DNA of 55,509 bases, from positions 1 to 55,509 of the forward strand of contig CANBER010000004.1 of NCBI GenBank assembly GCA_947367795.1, given 5' to 3'. The notes beneath the pieces were generated by a model, which saw only the letters and a program-made list of their open reading frames with translations, did no database searches and was not told the DNA's origin. This stretch comes from an uncultured Candidatus Saccharibacteria bacterium (GTDB lineage Bacteria > Patescibacteriota > Saccharimonadia > Saccharimonadales > Saccharimonadaceae). The first letter of the stretch is position 1. The number at the start of each line of letters is the position of its first letter. This document shows positions 16,798-43,764 of the stretch, one piece after another. The position numbers and the translations under genes are program-made.

Positions 16798-18618
16798 TTA
16801 ACGACGATCCTCCGGTCGGGTAGTAATAAGCGATTCTTCGGTTTCGGATGCGATAACCTGAATATGGACATGGTTAGATCCGGCGAAGAAGAGGCCTTGG
16901 CCGACTGGAAAGTTGGCGAGGCGTTTTTTCTCTTCGTTGGTGAGTTTGAAGACATCAGAAAGCACATCAACGGCGCTGGCGCTTTGTTTGAGGAGAAGCT
17001 GCATGGAAGAGTTGGCGACGATAGCACGTCCCATTTTGCTGCTCATGAAATCTTCGACGTCCTGGGTGATAGTGGTGAGCCCAAGATAGTATTTACGGGC
17101 ACGTTTAGCAAGGCTGAAGAGGAAGTTGGCGGAATCGTCATATTTCATGAGCTGCCAGGCCTCATCAACGATGAGAAGGCGACGTTTTTGTTCGGCACGC
17201 ACGACATTCCAGACGTGACTGAGGACGATATACATAGCGACGGGGCGGAGTTCGTCTTCGAGGTCGCGGATGTTGAAAACCACCATGGTGTTGTTGATGT
17301 TGACATTGGATTGTTGAGAGAAGATACCGGCGAAGGTGCCAGTGGTGTATTTGCGTAAGCGACCGGCAAGTTGTGGGCCGGTGCCACCCATGTGGAGGAG
17401 AGTATCGTAAAGATTGATGATAGTGGGTGGAGTGCTCTGGTGGGTCAAAGGGTCACTGGTGATACCGGCGCGAGCGTAGGTGTCGATGAGGGCTTGGTCG
17501 AGGTCTGCTTCTTCGTTGGCGGTGAGGCCGACTTGACCGGCGATGGATCCACCAAGCATGAGACGAAAGAGACCGTGCAGGGTGACGAGGTTGGCGCGGA
17601 GGGCGTCGTTGGCGTCTTCGTTGTCGACGATTTTGGGAAGATCAAAAGGATTAATACGGACATCGGAATTGAGACTGAGCCGGATGTAGCTACCGCCAAC
17701 GGCATCGCAGAGTTTCTGGTACTCATTTTCGGGGTCGATAATGATGATTTCGGTACCGATCATCATAGAGCGGACAGCTTCAAGCTTGACAGCGAAAGAC
17801 TTACCAGCACCGGATTTAGCAAAGACGACAAGATTGGCGTTTTCAAGGCTGAAACGATCGAAAATAACTAAACCATTATTATGCATATTGATACCATAGA
17901 GGATACCATTTTCTTGGGTAAGGTCGGCTGAGGTAAAAGGAAAACTGGTGGAGATAGCGCCGGTGTTCATGTTGCGGCGGATCTGGAGTTGATCAGTACA
18001 TTGGGGCATGGTGCTGTTCATTCCCTGCTCTTGTTGAGAAGTGGCGACTTTGCTGAAGACCATTTGTTGTCCGAGAAGAGTCTCAATCTTGTGTTGGACG
18101 AAGCTGAGCTCTTCGAGTGAGTCGGCCCAGAGTGTGATATAAAGACCGAAGCGGAAGAATTTTTCGGCGCCGACTTGGAGCTTGTCGCGGAGCTCTTCGG
18201 CATCTTGGATGGCGGCTTCGAGTTCTGGGTCACGGATTTTACCTTTTTCGGCATTGACACTATAGGAAGCTTCGAGCTGAGTAACTTTTTTGCGCAAGTT
18301 TTTCATGACGACAGTCGTCTCTACGGGATAGACGTACATGGAGACATCAAGGACTTCATCAATGTTGATTAAGCCGGAGATCCAGCCGGTATAAAGTGTA
18401 CGGGGATAGCCGTAAACATAAATAGTGCGTCCATATTTGGTGCCGAGACGGAAATAACTGGAGTGGATTTCGATGGAGCTAGGGGAAATGAGGTCGCGTA
18501 GAGTAGTAATTCCCTGCTCAAAGGCGCGCTGAACTTCGGCGTCTTCAGCGGCTTGGGAAGCGGCCGCGATGTCGGCGGCGGTGTTTCCGGTTTTGGCTTG
18601 GCGGTTTTTCTTGCCCAT
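16798..18618 (-). CDS. virB4: VirB4-type T4SS ATPase
   Basis: 606 residues. The N-terminal part (about 30-260) is the VirB4/TraE-like platform including YVYGYPRTLYTGWISGLIN. The motor domain has Walker A FAKSGAGKSFAVKLE (about 272-286), IIIDPENEYQKL, and Walker B LLIVDEAWQLM (about 472-482) followed by KRARKYYLGLTTITQDVEDF. VirB4 powers assembly and transport of type IV secretion systems at the inner face of the membrane. It lies 1 nt after the preceding gene in the operon. Confidence 0.93.
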   Translation of the reverse strand: MGKKNRQAKTGNTAADIAAASQAAEDAEVQRAFEQGITTLRDLISPSSIEIHSSYFRLGTKYGRTIYVYGYPRTLYTGWISGLINIDEVLDVSMYVYPVETTVVMKNLRKKVTQLEASYSVNAEKGKIRDPELEAAIQDAEELRDKLQVGAEKFFRFGLYITLWADSLEELSFVQHKIETLLGQQMVFSKVATSQQEQGMNSTMPQCTDQLQIRRNMNTGAISTSFPFTSADLTQENGILYGINMHNNGLVIFDRFSLENANLVVFAKSGAGKSFAVKLEAVRSMMIGTEIIIIDPENEYQKLCDAVGGSYIRLSLNSDVRINPFDLPKIVDNEDANDALRANLVTLHGLFRLMLGGSIAGQVGLTANEEADLDQALIDTYARAGITSDPLTHQSTPPTIINLYDTLLHMGGTGPQLAGRLRKYTTGTFAGIFSQQSNVNINNTMVVFNIRDLEDELRPVAMYIVLSHVWNVVRAEQKRRLLIVDEAWQLMKYDDSANFLFSLAKRARKYYLGLTTITQDVEDFMSSKMGRAIVANSSMQLLLKQSASAVDVLSDVFKLTNEEKKRLANFPVGQGLFFAGSNHVHIQVIASETEESLITTRPEDRR

Positions 18619-20618: not shown

Positions 20619-23600
20619 TTAATTTTGACCGTAATCCCCGTATTCGGTATAGATGAGTTGGAAGACTTCGTCGCGGAAGTCGCGAATGAGGTTGGGGTCG
20701 TCGGGGTTTTGGGGGTCGAGTTTGGATTCGGTGAAGGTAATAATTTCTTCAAGATTGGACATAGCTGAGGGCGAGGAGCTGAGAGTGTCGGATTCTTTGA
20801 AGGCGGTGCGGACGGCGGTGGTGATAGAATCGAAGTCATCAACTTGCTCGAAGACGTCTCTGAGGTTATTAATGATGGAGGTGGAATCGTCGAGGACGGA
20901 ATACATATCTTCAAAATCTTTGGTATTGGCAAGTTTGGAGAAGACTTTAGCGAGTTCTTTGTAGAGTTGACTGCTGTTTTCGAAGTGGGTGCCATGAGAT
21001 TTTGGCTTTGAGGGGCTAGAGGTGGAAGTGGAACTTCCTGATGACTGAGAGGAGTCAGAGTTATTGTAAGTCTGATAGAGTTGTTCGACGAGATTACGAT
21101 ATGTGGAAGAGATAGTGTTGGGGTCTTTGCCCTTGAGGACGTCGACATGAGGATTGAGACGATCTAGGAATGGAATGTTGACATCGAGGTTGTCGGAACC
21201 GAGGTTGAGCATGATAGACATGAAGTCGTCGAGAGCCTCAGTGGCGCTACTCTTTTGAGCATCAAGGGTGTTGTTGGATGGACGGCGTTTACCGTAATCA
21301 AAGAGGGTTTTGACGAAGCTGGCGAAGAGGTTATGTTTAAGATAGTTGCGCTGATCGTCGAGAGTGAGGGTCTTATCGTTGCGACTGATTTTGTTCCAAA
21401 CCGCGTTACCATCATCATCCATGCTGAGTCGATAACCGGGGAGACGTTCGCCGTTGACGTTGCGATAGTTGGCAATAGATTCGTCGGGAAAATAATCTTC
21501 GAAGCGATAGCCTTCTTCGGTGGCAACAAGAGATCTACAGAGGTTAGCAAAGTGTTCGAGAGAGAATCTGTCGTTTTGGAGGAAGTCGCTAGCTTTGGAA
21601 GATTTAGTGATGACGTCAAGCATGGCGATATTGAGTTGACCGGGAGAGGTGATATAACCATTATCGAGCTGGGTGGTAAGCATGGTAGTAAAGGCGGCGT
21701 TTTTCTCTTTGAAGCGTGAGGCTTGAAGAGCGGCAGCAAAGGTGCTATGGAATCGGCGAAGTGTGCCGTCATGCTCGAGATTGTCGGCAGTAGTGATACC
21801 TTCGATAATGGGGGTTTTTTCGCTGTCAGGACGAGCGAGACCGAGTTCAGTGGCATAACGCATGTTGATAGGGTCACCAATGGCGACGTCACGTGCGATA
21901 AAAGTCTTCATGTAGCCGGCATCGTCTTCGTAAACACGGTTCATGAAGTTGTCATGGTCGTCTGTAAGATCGAGATATTTGACCTTTTTGTAGTTTGCGC
22001 GTTCGGCGTCAGAGAGAGCGTCGTATTCATCTTTGGTGATCTCGACGTTGGTGGTTTTGTGAACGCCAATGTAGTATTGATAGGGGCGATGTACCTTCCC
22101 TTTCTTGAGTCGATAATGCTGATCTTCGATAACTTCACCGTTTTTGTCGAGTTCGTAGCCGTCGTCGTTCATGGCGGCTTTATCAAATGCCATATTGCGG
22201 AATTGGGATTTGGGATAGCCGAACTTGGTAGCGACGATTTCGGCCTCGGCTTTGCGGCGGCGTTCGATGTCGGCGCTACGGATAACGACTTGACCCATGA
22301 TGGTAGTCTCACCGAGGTGACCGAGTTTGCCGGTGGCACCACCGACGAGGCGATTGAATTCGTATGGCGCGGTGTAGCGACCAGCGGCAGCTTTCATGTA
22401 GCGATCGAGAAGGAAGGATTGGTCGCCCTGAGCGATGTTTTCGGCACGGAATTGTTGGGCCATGGTTTCGAGATAAGCTCCGGCGTGAGCGTCGGCAAGA
22501 GTTTTGACACGACTGCCATGAAAGATATCACCGTATTCGGAAAGAGTGTTTTTGAGATCAAGTTCGGCAGTGGCGGTGCGAGTAGCTTGAAGGCTGGCAC
22601 GTTTAGCAGCTGAAGTGAGGTGATTGGGGCGGCGTCTCCAGGTGGCATGACCAAAAGCATCGTAGCCGGTGGAGGAACCGATCTTTTTGAGAGCGTTTTC
22701 AGTCAAGCGTCCTTGATAGCTGCTGGAAAGGTTTTTGGTATTGAGCTCGCGGCGTTTGGCACGTTCGGCGAGGTAATTGCGGAGTTTAGATCCAGGAAAA
22801 CGATTAGCTTCGAGGTAACGTTGACGGTTTTGATCGACATGAGACAATCCCCATTTGTCAATAGCGCGACGGGCGGGGTTGGAAAGATTGTTGAGACCGC
22901 GACTGATACTGCCGAGGACAGTGTTGGACATTTGGAGAAGTGGGACAGAGAGGCAGAGCGGCATCACTTGAATAGCGAGGCCGAGAAGAACACGGAAGAG
23001 GCTGCCTTCAGCAGAGTAGATGATGGCGAGGCCGGCAAGTTTGGAAGCATTAAAGAGGAAGCTGAACATGGGGTAGAAGAAGATCATTTGGGCAAGGGTG
23101 TTTTTCCAGCGGTCGAACCAACGTTCGGTATTGGGGAGGAGGTAACAAACAAAGGCGAGCGGGGCAATCATGATAAGGATGAGGACGACACCTTGGCGAA
23201 AACAGATGGTGACGATGCCAATACCGAGAGAAATAATACCGCCGAGTAAAGCGAGACCACAGATCCAGAGAAGAGCTCCTACGCCACTGTTGGCAATGAC
23301 TGTGACGGCGAGGATTCCGCCGCCACCGGTGAGGGCGGCGAGGAGGCTACCCCAAGAGACGTCGCGGAAGGGATCGGATTCGGGGACTTTGGCGGCAAGT
23401 TCGATTTGGAGATCTTGGATGGTAGTGCTAATGCTGCTGCCAATAATGTTGCTTAGGTCAACGGCGAGCGCGGTGATGTAAAAACTGAGGTTGACAAGAA
23501 TGGCAGCGACAATGATGCGCGGGAGGACACGTTTGATACCGTAATTATTAATACCTAAGCCAGTCAGTTGGGAAAAGACTACAATGAGAATGAAGATGAT

Positions 23601-24128
23601 AAAGACAGTGTTAGTGATGTCGCGGGTTTTTTGCCAGACTTGGTGGACGGCGGAATCTTGATCGACGAGGGTGGATTTGACGTCAAGGAAGTTTTCGATA
23701 AGACCGTAGATATAATCAACGCCGCCGCCGACGATTTGCATGACGGGGCAGAGGATCCACGAGACGGAGCCGAATTCGGTTTGGCAGATATTAACCTCAG
23801 GATTAGAGTTGGTGGTTTGGTCTTCGCCGTGGTTTTCAGCTTTTTGGGGGTCGTCGGAGTTCTCTGAGTCGTCGGTGATGTCGGTGGTGGGAGTTTCATC
23901 GGTAGGATTAGGGTCAGAGTCGGTGCTATCGGAAGTCTCTGAGTCGACAGCTTCATTCCCTGGTGTTTGATCGGATCGGTCAGGGTTATTGTCATGAATA
24001 GTATCAGGAGAAGGGTCTTCCGGAAGAGCGTAAACAGGGGCAGGTGTGAGTAATGTAGAAAATCCAGCAAAAATGAAGCCAAGGCTGAGTAGGCAGGTCA
24101 AAAGAAGTTGTTTCAGTCGGGTTTTCAT
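20619..24128 (-). CDS. giant polytopic T4SS channel protein (VirB6/TrbL-like)
   Basis: 1169 residues. Signal peptide at 1-33, an Asp/Glu/Thr/Pro-rich linker (about 35-115), then a block of membrane helices (about 120-410) separated by Gly/Ala-rich turns such as AALTGGGGILAVTVIANSG, as in VirB6/TrbL. From about 420 the protein is hydrophilic and basic-then-acidic, over 700 residues of probable cytoplasmic domain, with a Ser-rich patch near 1040-1060. First gene of the leftward operon, driven by the promoter at 24172-24200. The fused long soluble tail is characteristic of CPR-type VirB6 homologues; its role is unknown. Confidence 0.8.
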   Translation of the reverse strand: MKTRLKQLLLTCLLSLGFIFAGFSTLLTPAPVYALPEDPSPDTIHDNNPDRSDQTPGNEAVDSETSDSTDSDPNPTDETPTTDITDDSENSDDPQKAENHGEDQTTNSNPEVNICQTEFGSVSWILCPVMQIVGGGVDYIYGLIENFLDVKSTLVDQDSAVHQVWQKTRDITNTVFIIFILIVVFSQLTGLGINNYGIKRVLPRIIVAAILVNLSFYITALAVDLSNIIGSSISTTIQDLQIELAAKVPESDPFRDVSWGSLLAALTGGGGILAVTVIANSGVGALLWICGLALLGGIISLGIGIVTICFRQGVVLILIMIAPLAFVCYLLPNTERWFDRWKNTLAQMIFFYPMFSFLFNASKLAGLAIIYSAEGSLFRVLLGLAIQVMPLCLSVPLLQMSNTVLGSISRGLNNLSNPARRAIDKWGLSHVDQNRQRYLEANRFPGSKLRNYLAERAKRRELNTKNLSSSYQGRLTENALKKIGSSTGYDAFGHATWRRRPNHLTSAAKRASLQATRTATAELDLKNTLSEYGDIFHGSRVKTLADAHAGAYLETMAQQFRAENIAQGDQSFLLDRYMKAAAGRYTAPYEFNRLVGGATGKLGHLGETTIMGQVVIRSADIERRRKAEAEIVATKFGYPKSQFRNMAFDKAAMNDDGYELDKNGEVIEDQHYRLKKGKVHRPYQYYIGVHKTTNVEITKDEYDALSDAERANYKKVKYLDLTDDHDNFMNRVYEDDAGYMKTFIARDVAIGDPINMRYATELGLARPDSEKTPIIEGITTADNLEHDGTLRRFHSTFAAALQASRFKEKNAAFTTMLTTQLDNGYITSPGQLNIAMLDVITKSSKASDFLQNDRFSLEHFANLCRSLVATEEGYRFEDYFPDESIANYRNVNGERLPGYRLSMDDDGNAVWNKISRNDKTLTLDDQRNYLKHNLFASFVKTLFDYGKRRPSNNTLDAQKSSATEALDDFMSIMLNLGSDNLDVNIPFLDRLNPHVDVLKGKDPNTISSTYRNLVEQLYQTYNNSDSSQSSGSSTSTSSPSKPKSHGTHFENSSQLYKELAKVFSKLANTKDFEDMYSVLDDSTSIINNLRDVFEQVDDFDSITTAVRTAFKESDTLSSSPSAMSNLEEIITFTESKLDPQNPDDPNLIRDFRDEVFQLIYTEYGDYGQN

Positions 24129-38387: not shown

Positions 38388-41261
38388 TTATGATTGAGAT
38401 TGGGGTTGAGGTTTGGATTTGTTGCGATTGAAACGGCGATTGCGGCTCGGCTTGCGAGTGTTATGGGACTTGTTGGTATTTGGAGTGGGCTCGGATGGGG
38501 TTTGATTCCCCGTTTGGCTGGGTGATTCAGACTGAGGCGTGTTTGCGGTGGAGGCTTCGTTCCCTGCAATGAGGGTGCTGAGGTCTTTGAGTCCGAGGCG
38601 CTGCTTGCCTTCGGCGGCGTTAGGGGACATTTTGAGCTTACGAAAATCAGATTGTGGCGTGGGAACGTAGGTGAAATTAGCTCTTGAATTTACTTGGGAA
38701 TGAGAACTATTGTTTGAGGTGTAATTCCCTGTTTGATGAGAAAAGCCGGCTTGTTCATAATTCCCTGCTTGGGAATAGTTTGCTCCGGCGCTACCAGCGG
38801 CGCGCCCTGAATCGGAAAGTTCTTTTTTGTATTTTTCGGATTGCTCGATGGTGTCGCGGATTTCGGCTTCAACTACTTCGCGGTTGCGAGCATATTTGGC
38901 GCGAGAGCTGGCGACGATTTGCTCGAAGTTGTCTTTGGGGGTGACTGGTAAAGATAAGGTCGTTGCGGAAAAAGCTGGAGCTTTTTCGCCATTGATGATC
39001 ATTGATATGACGAAGTGGCGGTTGTTCATTTGGATGAGGTCGGATTGGTCAAAAGTGGGCTCGAATTGCTTGGCGAGGATGGGGGCGTCATCGGCAGAGA
39101 CACGGAAGGAAATGGTAGTGCCGACGTTGCCAAAGACTGCATCGCGGACTGAATCGGTCATTTGGGAGATGTATTGATTAGCTACAGTGAGATTGAGAGC
39201 GTATTTCCGAGCTTCGGATAAGATAACGGCGAAGCTATCGGTGGCGAAGTTTTGAAACTCGTCAACATAAAGGTAGAAGGGGCGGCGATCGGCGACGTCT
39301 GGGATGTCGCTGCGAGACATGGCGGCAAGTTGGATCTTGGTAACAAGGAAGGCTCCGAGGATGCCAGCATTATCTTCGCCGATAAGACCTTTGCTGAGAT
39401 TTACGACGAGGATTTTGCCTTCATCCATAATCTTGCGGACATCGAAGCTAGATTTGGGTTGGCCGATGATATTGCGGATGATAGGGTTAGCGGTGAAGGC
39501 ACCGACCTTATTGAGGACTGGGGCGATACTTTCGTTGACTTGTTTTTCGTTCCATTGTCCAAATTCGTGCTTCCAGAACTGTAAAACCGTGACATCTGTG
39601 CAATAATCGAGGGTTTCTTTACGGAAATCTTTGTCGGTGAGCAGGCGAGAAATATCGAGCAAGGTGGTGCCAGGACGGTCGAGTAGGGCCAGGATGGTGT
39701 GACGCAAGATGTGTTCGAGGCGTGGGCCCCAAGAATCGCCAAACATGCGTTTTAAGACGCCAATAACTTCAGAGCAGATGTTGGGCTTGCGTGATGGATC
39801 GTTAACTTCGAGTGGATTGAAGGCGACTGGATAGGCAGTATCAGCGGGATTGAAATAAATGACATCGTCGATGCGAGATTCTGGGACGAAGCGGAGGTTG
39901 TTGATGGCGAAATCACCGTGAGGGTCAATGATGCAATATCCTTGATTGTAAAAAACGTCACTGAGAGCAAAGAGCTCAAGCATGCCGGATTTACCAGCGC
40001 CGGTTTGGCCGATGATATAGACGTGACGCGAGCGGTCGCGACGTAGCATGCCGAACTGGTGATTAATGCCACGGAAGTTGGTCAGACCAAAAGCAGAAAT
40101 ATCTTCGTCGTGGGCAGGATCGCCAGTGACGAGAGGAAGTTTGGCGGGAGGCTCCGCGGTTTTGGACGAAGCCCAGACGATGTTAGGGGTTTCGACGGAG
40201 GTATGTGGAAGGTGGTAAACGCTAGCTAGTTCGGAGATGTTAAGGATGAAGCCGTGACTCTGGAATTGTCGCATTTTATAGGCATCAAGATCTTCAAGTC
40301 TGAAACTGCCACTAGTGAGATGAAACCCGTTGAGGTTGGTGGAGTTGAATTGTTTAAAAGTACCGACCAGGGCCTGCATGTTGAGTTTGGCGTTGGTTTG
40401 GTCGTGTCCGAGGTAGGTGAGGCGGATTTTGACTTCGTAGCCAAGCTTGGTGGCCTTTTCTTCGGCTTTGGCGATGCGAGTCTTGTCGCGCTCGGAGAGC
40501 TCGACTGGGGCGGCAGCGGTGCCTGTGCCTCCAGCGGGTGGGCGAAATAAGGCACCAAAAGCTTCAATGATCCAGGTCCAATCAATGCCACCGCTGCCGC
40601 CCGCAAACAGCTTACGGCCGGATTTGACTTTGCGGACCCATTTATCCGTGGTTTTTTTGTGCCAGTCATCGGGGATCGGGCGAGTGAGGATCTGCACCCA
40701 TAACTCTTCGGAATTATCAGGATTGAGTTTGGCGAGAGTACCAGTGATACCGGCGAGTGGGTCGACTTCGAAGTTTTCGAAGGTCTTGATCGGGAGAGCT
40801 TCATTGTCCGTCAAAGTGAGTTCGGCAGTATAAACTACAGGATATTTGTTGCGGTCATCGACGTAGTCGTCTTTCATTTTGTAGATCTGAACGGTGGGGT
40901 ATTGAGCATAAATCTGGCCTTCGACGAAGCTTTGAAGGATTTTGGGTACCCAGACATAGAAGCGGATTTGGCCGCCAGTAGAAACAATCTCGAAGCTCAG
41001 GTGCTCTTGGACGCCGCCGGAGTTTTTGAGCTCAGCTTTGTCGCGCAAGATGCCGTGGAGACTGGCAAAAAGTTGCTCGGCAGCGAGCTCTTTTTTGTCG
41101 TTGGCGCGCGGGATCTCGAGCATGAGCAAGACTGAATCAACATTCAGGACTTTGAGGCGATTAAGCTTACGGTAATTTCGATAGGTCAAAAAACCTAGCA
41201 GTAAGACGAGAGGCACCCAGAAAATCGGCATAATAATAAATTGTATAATTTGAGAAAGCAT
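38388..41261 (-). CDS. VirD4/TraG-like type IV coupling ATPase
   Basis: 957 residues. One or two N-terminal membrane helices (about 6-26), a middle domain of about 350 residues, Walker A IIGQTGAGKSGMLELFA (about 423-439) followed by IDPHGDFAINNL, and a Walker B / TraG C-terminal signature YLYVDEFQNFATDSFAVILSEARKY (about 660-684). The C-terminal 140 residues are Asn/Gln/Ser/Pro rich and end basic. Coupling proteins feed DNA or protein to the T4SS. It is separated from the virB-like genes by 14 kb and has its own promoter. Confidence 0.85.
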   Translation of the reverse strand: MLSQIIQFIIMPIFWVPLVLLLGFLTYRNYRKLNRLKVLNVDSVLLMLEIPRANDKKELAAEQLFASLHGILRDKAELKNSGGVQEHLSFEIVSTGGQIRFYVWVPKILQSFVEGQIYAQYPTVQIYKMKDDYVDDRNKYPVVYTAELTLTDNEALPIKTFENFEVDPLAGITGTLAKLNPDNSEELWVQILTRPIPDDWHKKTTDKWVRKVKSGRKLFAGGSGGIDWTWIIEAFGALFRPPAGGTGTAAAPVELSERDKTRIAKAEEKATKLGYEVKIRLTYLGHDQTNAKLNMQALVGTFKQFNSTNLNGFHLTSGSFRLEDLDAYKMRQFQSHGFILNISELASVYHLPHTSVETPNIVWASSKTAEPPAKLPLVTGDPAHDEDISAFGLTNFRGINHQFGMLRRDRSRHVYIIGQTGAGKSGMLELFALSDVFYNQGYCIIDPHGDFAINNLRFVPESRIDDVIYFNPADTAYPVAFNPLEVNDPSRKPNICSEVIGVLKRMFGDSWGPRLEHILRHTILALLDRPGTTLLDISRLLTDKDFRKETLDYCTDVTVLQFWKHEFGQWNEKQVNESIAPVLNKVGAFTANPIIRNIIGQPKSSFDVRKIMDEGKILVVNLSKGLIGEDNAGILGAFLVTKIQLAAMSRSDIPDVADRRPFYLYVDEFQNFATDSFAVILSEARKYALNLTVANQYISQMTDSVRDAVFGNVGTTISFRVSADDAPILAKQFEPTFDQSDLIQMNNRHFVISMIINGEKAPAFSATTLSLPVTPKDNFEQIVASSRAKYARNREVVEAEIRDTIEQSEKYKKELSDSGRAAGSAGANYSQAGNYEQAGFSHQTGNYTSNNSSHSQVNSRANFTYVPTPQSDFRKLKMSPNAAEGKQRLGLKDLSTLIAGNEASTANTPQSESPSQTGNQTPSEPTPNTNKSHNTRKPSRNRRFNRNKSKPQPQSQS

Positions 41262-41367: not shown

Positions 41368-42408
41368 TTATTGATTAGTTTGGGCAAGAGTGTAGGAATC
41401 TTTGTCGACTTTGTCAAAAAGTTGCTTGTTTTGGAGATTGAGGAGGACGGTGGTTTCCTTGACTTTGCGTGCACGGAGGACGCGTTTGACGATCTCTTCA
41501 CGGGTGAGGGGCTCGCCGGCTTCTTTGAGAATATTGGTGATGATATCAGCTACGGTTCCCTTGGCGTAGCCCCAAGAGCTGAGAGCATAGATGCCGCGTC
41601 CGATGAGGATAAAACGCGAATCCTTGATGAGTTCGTTGTGGATGGCCTGGATAGTGACGTTCTTGCGGCGAAATTCGGATTTGGAAATAGCCTCGGCAAT
41701 ATCAGAGAAATGCATCGGTTCTTTTTTGGCTTCGAGAACGACGAAGATTTTGTCACGAATGTTGCGAGGATTGACGGTCGGCCACTTGGCGAGACCCCAG
41801 AGTCCGTTGAGCGAGGCGAGGAGCTTGGAGATAGAAGCGATTGCGCGGATGTGATCAGGGTGTTCGTAATCTAGAGCCTCGTCGAGCTGATCGATAGTCA
41901 TAGGTTCTTTGTGTTTTTTGATGATGTCAACGATTTGGTCGACGCGAGCGTGGATGGTCTTGACGTCGCCGTATTCAGCGATGCCGATAGCGGCATAATA
42001 GAGATCGTTTTCGTCGATGGTGGTGAGATTATGGGAAATGGCGCTGATAAAAGTGAGCTTGGCGCGTTCGGCTGGAGTGGCTTTGTGACCATAAATACGT
42101 TCGGCGAGGTCAGTAGTGCGGGCGACGCGTCCGAGCTCGGTGAGATTGCGAATGATGAGCTTTTCGGCGGCGGCGAGTTCGCTGATCTGGCCTTCTTCGG
42201 CACCGATACGGAGGCGGACGAGAATGGCCTTTTCGAGTTGGCGTACACGCTCACGAGTGATATTGAGTAGCTCTCCGATTTGCTCGAGGGTCTCTTTTTG
42301 GCCAGAAAGACCAAAACGACGAGAGATAATCTCGCGCTCACGGTCTTGCTCAATAATACTTAGACTACCTTTGATAGCGTTTTCGATAGTTTCGGCGTGT
42401 TGATCCAT
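41368..42408 (-). CDS. sigma-70 region-4-like / HARE-HTH regulator
   Basis: 346 residues. Residues about 15-65 are a sigma region 4 helix-turn-helix: REREIISRRFGLSG then TLEQIGELLNITRERVRQLE, including the RVRQLE recognition helix. The rest has two HARE-HTH-like modules (about 215-285, PMHFSDIAEAI; and 285-340, PLTREEIVKRVL), a fold also used by RNA polymerase delta subunit. No region 2, so it cannot be a full sigma factor. A transcription modulator that touches RNA polymerase is likely. Promoter at 42470-42498. Confidence 0.75.
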   Translation of the reverse strand: MDQHAETIENAIKGSLSIIEQDREREIISRRFGLSGQKETLEQIGELLNITRERVRQLEKAILVRLRIGAEEGQISELAAAEKLIIRNLTELGRVARTTDLAERIYGHKATPAERAKLTFISAISHNLTTIDENDLYYAAIGIAEYGDVKTIHARVDQIVDIIKKHKEPMTIDQLDEALDYEHPDHIRAIASISKLLASLNGLWGLAKWPTVNPRNIRDKIFVVLEAKKEPMHFSDIAEAISKSEFRRKNVTIQAIHNELIKDSRFILIGRGIYALSSWGYAKGTVADIITNILKEAGEPLTREEIVKRVLRARKVKETTVLLNLQNKQLFDKVDKDSYTLAQTNQ

Positions 42409-42623: not shown

Positions 42624-43613
42624 TTAAAGATCAATACTGCTAAGATCCGGTGCTGCTGTAGCGGCACATTCGTTTTCGGCTGATAATGAATGCGACAGAT
42701 TTGCAAGCATCATGTAGAATCTGCTGTGATCCACTAACGGACACTCCTGAATTAAATTTAGGACAGCCGATTCGATTATGGATGCGAAGCGATGCAACTC
42801 AGAGTTGGAGTCCTGCGCAGTCGCGATATAACGCTCGATGATGTCAGGGTCGCCGGTTGAGATGTCAAGCCGGATCAGCTCTGACATCGTTTCGGTATCG
42901 TTAAAGAAAACCCGAGTAGACTCGTCTTCTACTTTGATATCGATATAGCGGACGCCGTCTTTGGTGACACACTTCCACGGACGATGCTCTGAGATGGGTT
43001 TCTCAGTCGAGGGGTCGATTTCGCGTCCTTCGTAGTCGAGAGCTTCGCAATCGAAGATCATGCCCCGAAGTGCGGCTTTGTTGATCACGGGTCTCCATTT
43101 GTCCTCATTGTGCGAATGTTTGGAACACAGGAACTCCTGGACCTCATCCAGAGCCTTTTCGGTTTCGGGCGTCAGCGGTTCAGCTTCTTTTGCGGGCTGT
43201 GAGGCGACTTTACAGAAGTACGCCATCATGTCGAGGTACTCTTTCATTGAAGGGGATCGCCCATTAACATCGCGCCATTCTTTGAGGTCGTCTTTGGATA
43301 TGTCAAGATAAGACATAATGATCCGGGCTTTAGCTCTTATGTCCGACTCGTGTTTGCTGTTTTGGCAAATAATTTCCCCTACAATGTACTGCTTGAGGAG
43401 ATTATCTTCCAGGAACAGGGCTGCGTTGTAGACGCGATGGTTCTTGAGTGCGGCGATGTAGCCGTCGATGAAGCCATTTTCCTCCCAAGCCCGCAGGTCG
43501 GTCATGAGTGGACCATGATCTACAGGTGCGACTTCGTGTTTCTGCAGAATCTCCTGCAGGGCCTCCTGTACGGTGCTGGTGTTCATGAAATGTTCGATAT
43601 TCTTTCTTCTCAT
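42624..43613 (-). CDS. orphan protein of unknown function (329 aa)
   Basis: 329 residues from the ATG at 43613, 8 nt after AAGGAGG. Soluble, acidic, mainly helical by eye, with Cys and His scattered; no membrane helix or signal. No family recognised. It is a single-gene unit with its own promoter, a long leader hairpin ending at the ribosome site, and a terminator. Codon use is more balanced (more C) than in the core genes around it, suggesting different origin or high expression. Confidence 0.65.
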   Translation of the reverse strand: MRRKNIEHFMNTSTVQEALQEILQKHEVAPVDHGPLMTDLRAWEENGFIDGYIAALKNHRVYNAALFLEDNLLKQYIVGEIICQNSKHESDIRAKARIIMSYLDISKDDLKEWRDVNGRSPSMKEYLDMMAYFCKVASQPAKEAEPLTPETEKALDEVQEFLCSKHSHNEDKWRPVINKAALRGMIFDCEALDYEGREIDPSTEKPISEHRPWKCVTKDGVRYIDIKVEDESTRVFFNDTETMSELIRLDISTGDPDIIERYIATAQDSNSELHRFASIIESAVLNLIQECPLVDHSRFYMMLANLSHSLSAENECAATAAPDLSSIDL

Positions 43614-43625
43614 TTTTGATTCCTC

Positions 43626-43685
43626 CTTGATCAAAAGTCTCGTTTACTCAGAGAAGAGTGGAGTAAACGGTTTCTTTTGATCAAG
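43626..43685 (-). promoter_or_regulatory. large leader hairpin adjoining the ribosome site
   Basis: Outer stem CTTGATCAAAAG/CTTTTGATCAAG (43626-43637 with 43674-43685), 12 bp perfect; inner stem CGTTTACTC/GAGTAAACG (43641-43649 with 43661-43669), 9 bp perfect. In the mRNA the stem ends with CAAG, the first bases of CAAGGAGG, so folding would partly bury or border the Shine-Dalgarno sequence. Confidence 0.75.
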
Positions 43686-43735
43686 AATTCGTCAAAAGCT
43701 CACAAGGAACTTAGCCTCTGGGAGGCTATACTTTC

Positions 43736-43764
43736 ATTGTATCACACATTCGTGATAATGTCAA
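43736..43764 (-). promoter_or_regulatory. promoter of the 42624-43613 gene
   Basis: Minus strand TTGACA (43759-43764), 17 nt spacer ending TGTGA, TACAAT (43736-43741); transcript leader about 115 nt containing the hairpin. Confidence 0.75.

Follow-up and report, generated by a model that had tools for sequence, protein, structure and literature searches.

A conserved hairpin reaching into the ribosome site of a T4SS-related gene in a Saccharibacteria genus: a candidate RNA switch

Introduction

Translational operators that sequester the Shine-Dalgarno (SD) sequence include the operators of phage coat proteins and the autoregulated leaders of ribosomal-protein genes, and in the RNA thermometers of the fourU and ROSE types the SD is paired to a U-rich arm. 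The leader element described here, from an uncultured Candidatus Saccharibacteria bacterium, can be compared with both. Like the SD-sequestering operators, it combines a hairpin over the ribosome site with an unpaired purine-rich feature suited to recognition by a protein; it differs from them in that its two-helix (A/G)AAC/AGA design matches no Rfam family and that it is found in 4 of 174 genomes of the genus. It has the same U-rich pairing of the SD as fourU and ROSE, but it is too stable in models. A third comparison is with RNase III sites of the T7 R1.1 type, which are likewise about 60 nt long with an asymmetric internal loop (PMC6121014); here the loop is 4/3 instead of 4/5, the element overlaps the SD, and the likeness is in shape only.

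For the Patescibacteria life-cycle switch, regulation of translation has been proposed as likely key, and its mechanism was called completely unknown (PMC11665869). The T4SS of Saccharibacteria is described in the same source as essential, with an unknown role, and virB6 is reported to be essential in S. epibionticum (PMC12102498). Among the titles and abstract beginnings listed in one open-access library for Saccharibacteria or the Candidate Phyla Radiation with riboswitch, or on Saccharibacteria with Shine-Dalgarno, no such element is described.

Here, we followed up a leader hairpin in a 55,509-nt stretch of DNA (contig CANBER010000004.1, hereafter the window), which had been noticed in a sequence-only reading. 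The genome of the window is referred to as G000 and three other genomes of the genus as G013, G043, and G058; all features given by window position are on the minus strand. Judging from sequence, the hairpin looks like a genuine RNA switch and a new small RNA element based on a known general principle.

Results and discussion

A two-helix hairpin that enters the ribosome site

The gene for a 329-aa protein (42624..43613) is preceded by an inverted repeat with 12-bp perfect arms at 43626-43637 and 43674-43685 and 9-bp arms at 43641-43649 and 43661-43669. The sequence-only reading had described a perfect stem of 12 bp plus 9 bp ending in the ribosome site; its arms were located as described, and in the RNA fold the outer stem is even longer, at 14 bp, with two additional pairs formed by SD bases (GA beyond the perfect arm). 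The resulting two-part hairpin, consisting of the 14-bp outer stem, a 4x3 internal loop, and the 9-bp inner stem, takes up much of the predicted 116-nt leader. In the sense direction, the 5′ arm of the outer stem (43674..43687, with 12 perfect pairs at 43674-43685 and two to SD bases) leads into the AAAC on the 5′ side of the internal loop (43670..43673), the 5′ arm of the inner stem (43661..43669), the apical loop (43650..43660), the 3′ arm of the inner stem (43641..43649), the AGA on the 3′ side of the internal loop (43638..43640), and finally the 3′ arm of the outer stem (43624..43637), which in the fold models enters the SD AAGGAGG (43622..43628). In the ensemble model of G000, five of the seven SD bases (AAGGA) are paired and the final GG is free. 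The 79-nt element has a predicted energy of −26.9 kcal/mol (z = −4.84), which none of 200 dinucleotide shuffles equaled.

To place this stem among its peers, we scored 162 leaders of the same genome, taken from home-made gene calls with an SD match of at least 5 bases and at least 70 nt of upstream space (these own-genome surveys are without 4,392 bases of contig C2 and without contig C38, which reads N). Of all stems that end at the SD, that of the 329-aa gene's leader is the strongest, with a score of 30.5 versus 25.5 for the next leader and versus 24.5 for the best of its own 30 shuffles. When all 162 leaders were compared with 30 shuffles each (single-base shuffles of the upstream part only), the mean stem score was 13.10 versus 12.65 and topped all 30 replicate means (highest, 13.03), with 29 leaders versus 21.6 shuffled (standard deviation [sd], 4.5) at score 16 and 15 versus 9.3 (sd, 2.9) at score 18. 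There may thus be a slight general tendency to moderate stems ending at the SD, or the excess may be a matter of base composition. A genome-wide class of comparably strong leader stems was rejected, as from score 20 up there was no excess except for this leader and one other; a first, unfocused fold survey of the genome's leaders was too noisy for counts. Separately, the leader of the G000 gene at C3:45022-45615 has a long hairpin that includes a 12-bp perfect stem near the SD, of different sequence and, by eye, with no (A/G)AAC/AGA loop.

Upstream of the hairpin is a sigma-70 type promoter motif (TTGACA-17-TACAAT, 43736..43764) that matches at 11 of 12 positions and has a TG before the second hexamer. 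Transcription would start just past this motif, giving the 116-nt leader, and a short hairpin is predicted at the 5′ end of the transcript (43712..43728). Promoter-like motifs with identical 17-nt spacing lie upstream of the element in G013, G043, and G058. A 5′-end hairpin is also seen in the fold of G043; in G058 there is a short inverted repeat by eye only, which is absent from the predicted fold. A terminator was considered and dismissed, since the stem has no T-run after it when read in the sense direction; a terminator scan did not list the hairpin, which its loop limit of 8 would exclude anyway.

The promoter stretch itself (43787-43726) has nine other matches in the genome, with 78-96% identity over 23-62 nt, on contigs C3, C6, C7, C10, C14, and C21, and appears to be a recurring strong promoter type. 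Several of the matches seem to precede genes that have no obvious name, and one precedes a gene that by eye encodes an Obg-like GTPase. The leader as a whole is not a repeat, as all nine matches fall within its promoter part.

Pairing is conserved among relatives while sequence drifts

A protein search of 99 genomes returned matches in the genome of the window and in three others of the genus. In all three (G013, locus L010; G043, L011; G058, L013), the element and the gene are at the same locus, between topA and a gene encoding a sigma region 4 joined to a HARE-HTH domain. A fourth outside match (L012) is the VirB6-like T4SS gene of G058, named by similarity. The copy in G043 (L011, about 2199-2140, minus strand) has an in-frame TAG after 19 codons and an intact leader element; it may be a decaying gene or the product of an assembly error.

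When the four leaders were aligned with MAFFT without structure, 97.5% of 80 cells were standard pairs, with compensatory changes on both sides in 12 of the 20 pairs and 19 further pair types, counts that rest on four sequences of one genus and in which cells count sequences, not events. None of 500 shuffles reached any of the five measures, and pairing fell to 32-53% in a control with partners slid by 1-3 columns. Because the tested structure had been named from inspection of these same sequences, a cleaner check is provided by RNAalifold, which, unprompted, predicted 24 pairs, 14 of them compensatory, which form the same helices and extend into the SD. All four copies fold better than their own 200 shuffles, with z values of −4.84 to −6.08. 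Base pairing is thus conserved beyond sequence in these four leaders. The sequence-only reading had called for a check of compensatory changes in relatives and had named conservation of sequence rather than structure, or no conservation at all, as the outcomes that would speak against it; it is the structure that turned out to be kept.

Conservation is uneven along the hairpin. The outer and inner stems have mean pairwise identities of 0.56 and 0.60, and the apical loop 0.28; for the internal loop taken together with the pairs that close it, the figure is 0.95. In this loop, AGA is invariant among the four genomes and AAAC is replaced only by GAAC in G013. At the ribosome site, the predicted structure of every member includes SD pairing: the SD is fully paired in G013 and G058, GGAGG is paired in G043, and AAGGA is paired in G000, where two bases are free. 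The earlier proposal that folding competes with ribosome binding is therefore borne out at the level of models, with SD bases paired in four of four leaders and the pairing kept through compensatory changes.

These patterns bear on several other explanations. The same DNA had been suggested to be a palindrome bound by a dimeric repressor, and the arms do form an inverted repeat containing TTGATCAA. Yet the letters of the arms differ among the relatives while pairing is retained, and a search of the genome with the leader found repeats in the promoter part only; we consider a repressor site of this kind extremely improbable.

A passive leader, in which a strong hairpin only protects the mRNA or fixes a constant low level of translation and there is no regulator, would agree with the 5′-end hairpin and the strong-looking promoter, and simple stems would likewise covary. 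It would leave unexplained, however, both the near-invariant internal loop amid a drifting apical loop and stems and the entry of the stem into the SD in all four copies, and we hold it to be quite unlikely. The role of mRNA stabilizer, one of the functions suggested for the stem, is conceivable but does not explain the conserved internal loop either. Among those suggestions, protein binding is favored by that loop.

Temperature, upstream translation, and RNase III

A simple RNA thermometer, in which higher temperature opens the SD, was another of the functions initially proposed, and the SD does pair with U-rich 5′ arms, notably in G058. In models computed at 10, 25, 50, 60, and 70°C, however, the stem stays closed to 50-60°C: at 60°C, the modeled unpaired fraction was at most 0.21 for AAGGA of G000 and at most 0.19 for the other three sites (the SDs in G013 and G058, GGAGG in G043), so that by these models the SD does not open within the physiological temperature range. 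The four copies have outer stems of 14-16 pairs and element energies of −25 to −31 kcal/mol, which is stronger than expected of a physiological thermometer. We regard thermal opening as a very remote explanation.

The leaders were also examined for upstream translation. No stop codon interrupts the main reading frame across much of the hairpin in G013 and G058, where possible starts lie upstream and the use of one of them is conceivable. In-frame stops lie 33 nt upstream of the ATG in G000 and 39 nt upstream in G043, so that the hairpin does not as a rule lie in coding sequence. Each leader contains short frames that begin with a start codon, as would be needed for a leader-peptide attenuator of the erm/cat type, where the stem is opened by ribosome stalling. 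But only 1 of the 17 candidate starts in the four leaders is preceded by an SD-like motif, the frame of that one encodes a single amino acid, and by eye no start or peptide is common to the leaders. As no conserved, translated short open reading frame was found in them, attenuation of this type seems highly unlikely.

The main rival to a translational operator is processing by RNase III, in which the interrupted duplex is cut and the 5′ arm is removed, with the ribosome site either freed or destroyed. There is precedent in E. coli adhE, the translation of which depends on processing. Both a long interrupted duplex and an RNase III gene (C1:6047-6439, 137 bits) are present in the organism, a combination that is necessary for such a site and not sufficient. 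The duplex is also similar in geometry to the R1.1 substrate of T7, which measures 60 nt and has an asymmetric internal loop of 4/5 nt (PMC6121014); the corresponding figures here are 64 nt and 4/3 nt. On the other hand, RNase III could potentially act on many long hairpins, so that this explanation predicts little, and it is not obvious why processing should require the loop sequence to be near-invariant. We judge RNase III processing to be unlikely, although it deserves to be kept in mind, and prefer an operator in which the loop is the site of recognition.

Occurrence of the element and the gene

A covariance model (R1) built for the element matched seven of 174 genus genomes at an E value of 0.1 or better. 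Four of these matches score 79-90 bits, and the three others, at 22-24 bits, look like chance. Candidates in G022, G186, G051, and G230 (22-24 bits) were judged to be chance matches and fold without the two stems; in G441 (27 bits), a stem covers the beginning of a gene that by eye is msrB-like, in a different layout. No further convincing copy was found with R1 in samples of 294 order and 392 class genomes, which were searched with stricter filters and overlap with the genus search. An exact pattern derived from the four known copies, which would miss variants, had no matches in a viral contig collection and five in a genome contig collection; three of the five are the known relatives, and the other two (L121 and L124) do not fold as the two-stem element. 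No sign of a phage origin of the element was found. A motif-specific scan of the genome of the window, to which the three relatives had been added as positives, recovered these together with the present site and a single weak match. Rfam models gave no match for the leader, the only Rfam match in the window being a tRNA, with microRNA models far below their cut-offs.

The same four genomes yielded both the gene and the element (174 being searched for the element), with the caveat that protein searches may miss diverged copies of the gene. In the window, the neighboring gene for sigma-70 region 4 joined to HARE-HTH, identified with Pfam, is at 41368-42408. We fetched 30 loci of this sigma gene (60 genomes searched), and topA was within reach by tblastn in 21 of them. 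In 17 of the 21, the two genes adjoin, the topA frame ending less than 350 nt from the sigma gene; since such gaps have no room for the 329-aa gene, its presence at this locus is uncommon.

The gene product resembles part of a VirB6-like protein

The gene had been called an orphan, which is right insofar as the 329-aa protein has no match in Pfam or NCBIfam, including no TrbL membrane domain. The label fails in another respect: a VirB6-like T4SS protein has, after its membrane segments, a region that part of the 329-aa protein resembles. In a single BLASTP comparison with the VirB6-like protein of G058, it matched with an E value of 1e-9 and 26% identity over 224 columns; the match to the window's own VirB6-like protein was weaker (E = 2e-5). 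A profile-profile comparison of the gene product with VirB6-like proteins gave a probability of 98.2%, on thin profiles.

To assess the four gene products together, we built a hidden Markov model (HMM) from seven VirB6-like proteins and ran it against 986 sequences, namely, the four products, 782 further called genes of the genome, and 200 shuffles. Six sequences, none of them a shuffle, matched at an E value of 10 or better. They include all four products, with E values of 5.5e-16, 1.2e-10, 1.7e-4, and 0.0074 (for G043, the part after the stop); six of the seven proteins in the model had been gathered with the C-terminal part of the window's protein, so that its own score is partly circular and those of the other three products are not. 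The other two matches are a VirB6-like protein (C2:46202-49666) and a 153-aa protein (C6:1193-1654). The latter, with an E value of 2.3e-5, is another free-standing protein of G000 related to the VirB6-like region, and its leader is, by eye, without the same SD-covering design.

By similarity, then, the gene product can be described as a free-standing protein related to part of the VirB6-like T4SS protein. It has in common with VirB6/TrbL proteins the region after the membrane segments, which is probably cytoplasmic, and differs from them in standing free and having no TrbL match. Length and content vary widely among the four products, and a single-sequence structure prediction for the 329-aa protein was unusable (mean pLDDT, 44.4).

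The window also holds other T4SS genes. Its VirB6/TrbL-like protein (20619..24128), matched to Pfam TrbL with an E value of 0.0013 and a score of 19 bits that falls short of the curated cut-off (25.9), is 41% identical over residues 21-755 of the VirB6-like protein of G058. A VirB4-like ATPase is encoded at 16798-18618 and a TraD/VirD4-like coupling protein at 38388-41261. In addition, an 881-aa protein encoded at 149-2794 carries several beta-trefoil lectin domains of the ricin type and may serve to bind carbohydrates at the surface.

Proposed mechanism

We suggest that the element is a cis-acting, default-off translational operator that is read through its internal loop by a trans factor, a reading to which we assign a probability of roughly 0.58. 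From the strong-looking promoter motif, transcription would start about 116 nt upstream of the AUG. The leader would then fold so that the outer stem of the two-helix hairpin, a structure supported by covariation, pairs with the SD, and the resting mRNA would be poorly translated. In G000, repression may be incomplete, since two SD bases (GG) are free in the model. Flanked by two covarying helices, the purine-rich internal loop (A/G)AAC/AGA is probably recognized by a trans factor, itself probably a protein, which would change access to the SD in one direction or the other. Such a switch would probably time the production of the accessory VirB6-related protein relative to the T4SS.

A more specific and more speculative picture, which we consider unlikely as a whole, is that of a new lineage-restricted regulatory RNA of epibionts. 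A T4SS-related protein, or a signal of T4SS assembly or host contact, would be read via the (A/G)AAC/AGA loop and would unlock translation of the detached VirB6-like region, possibly by autoregulation.

Conclusions

The hiding of an SD in a stem is a well-known principle, which limits the surprise of the present finding. As a covarying RNA switch ahead of a T4SS-related gene, the element would nevertheless offer a small, testable handle on the control of translation in these bacteria and on the role of their T4SS.
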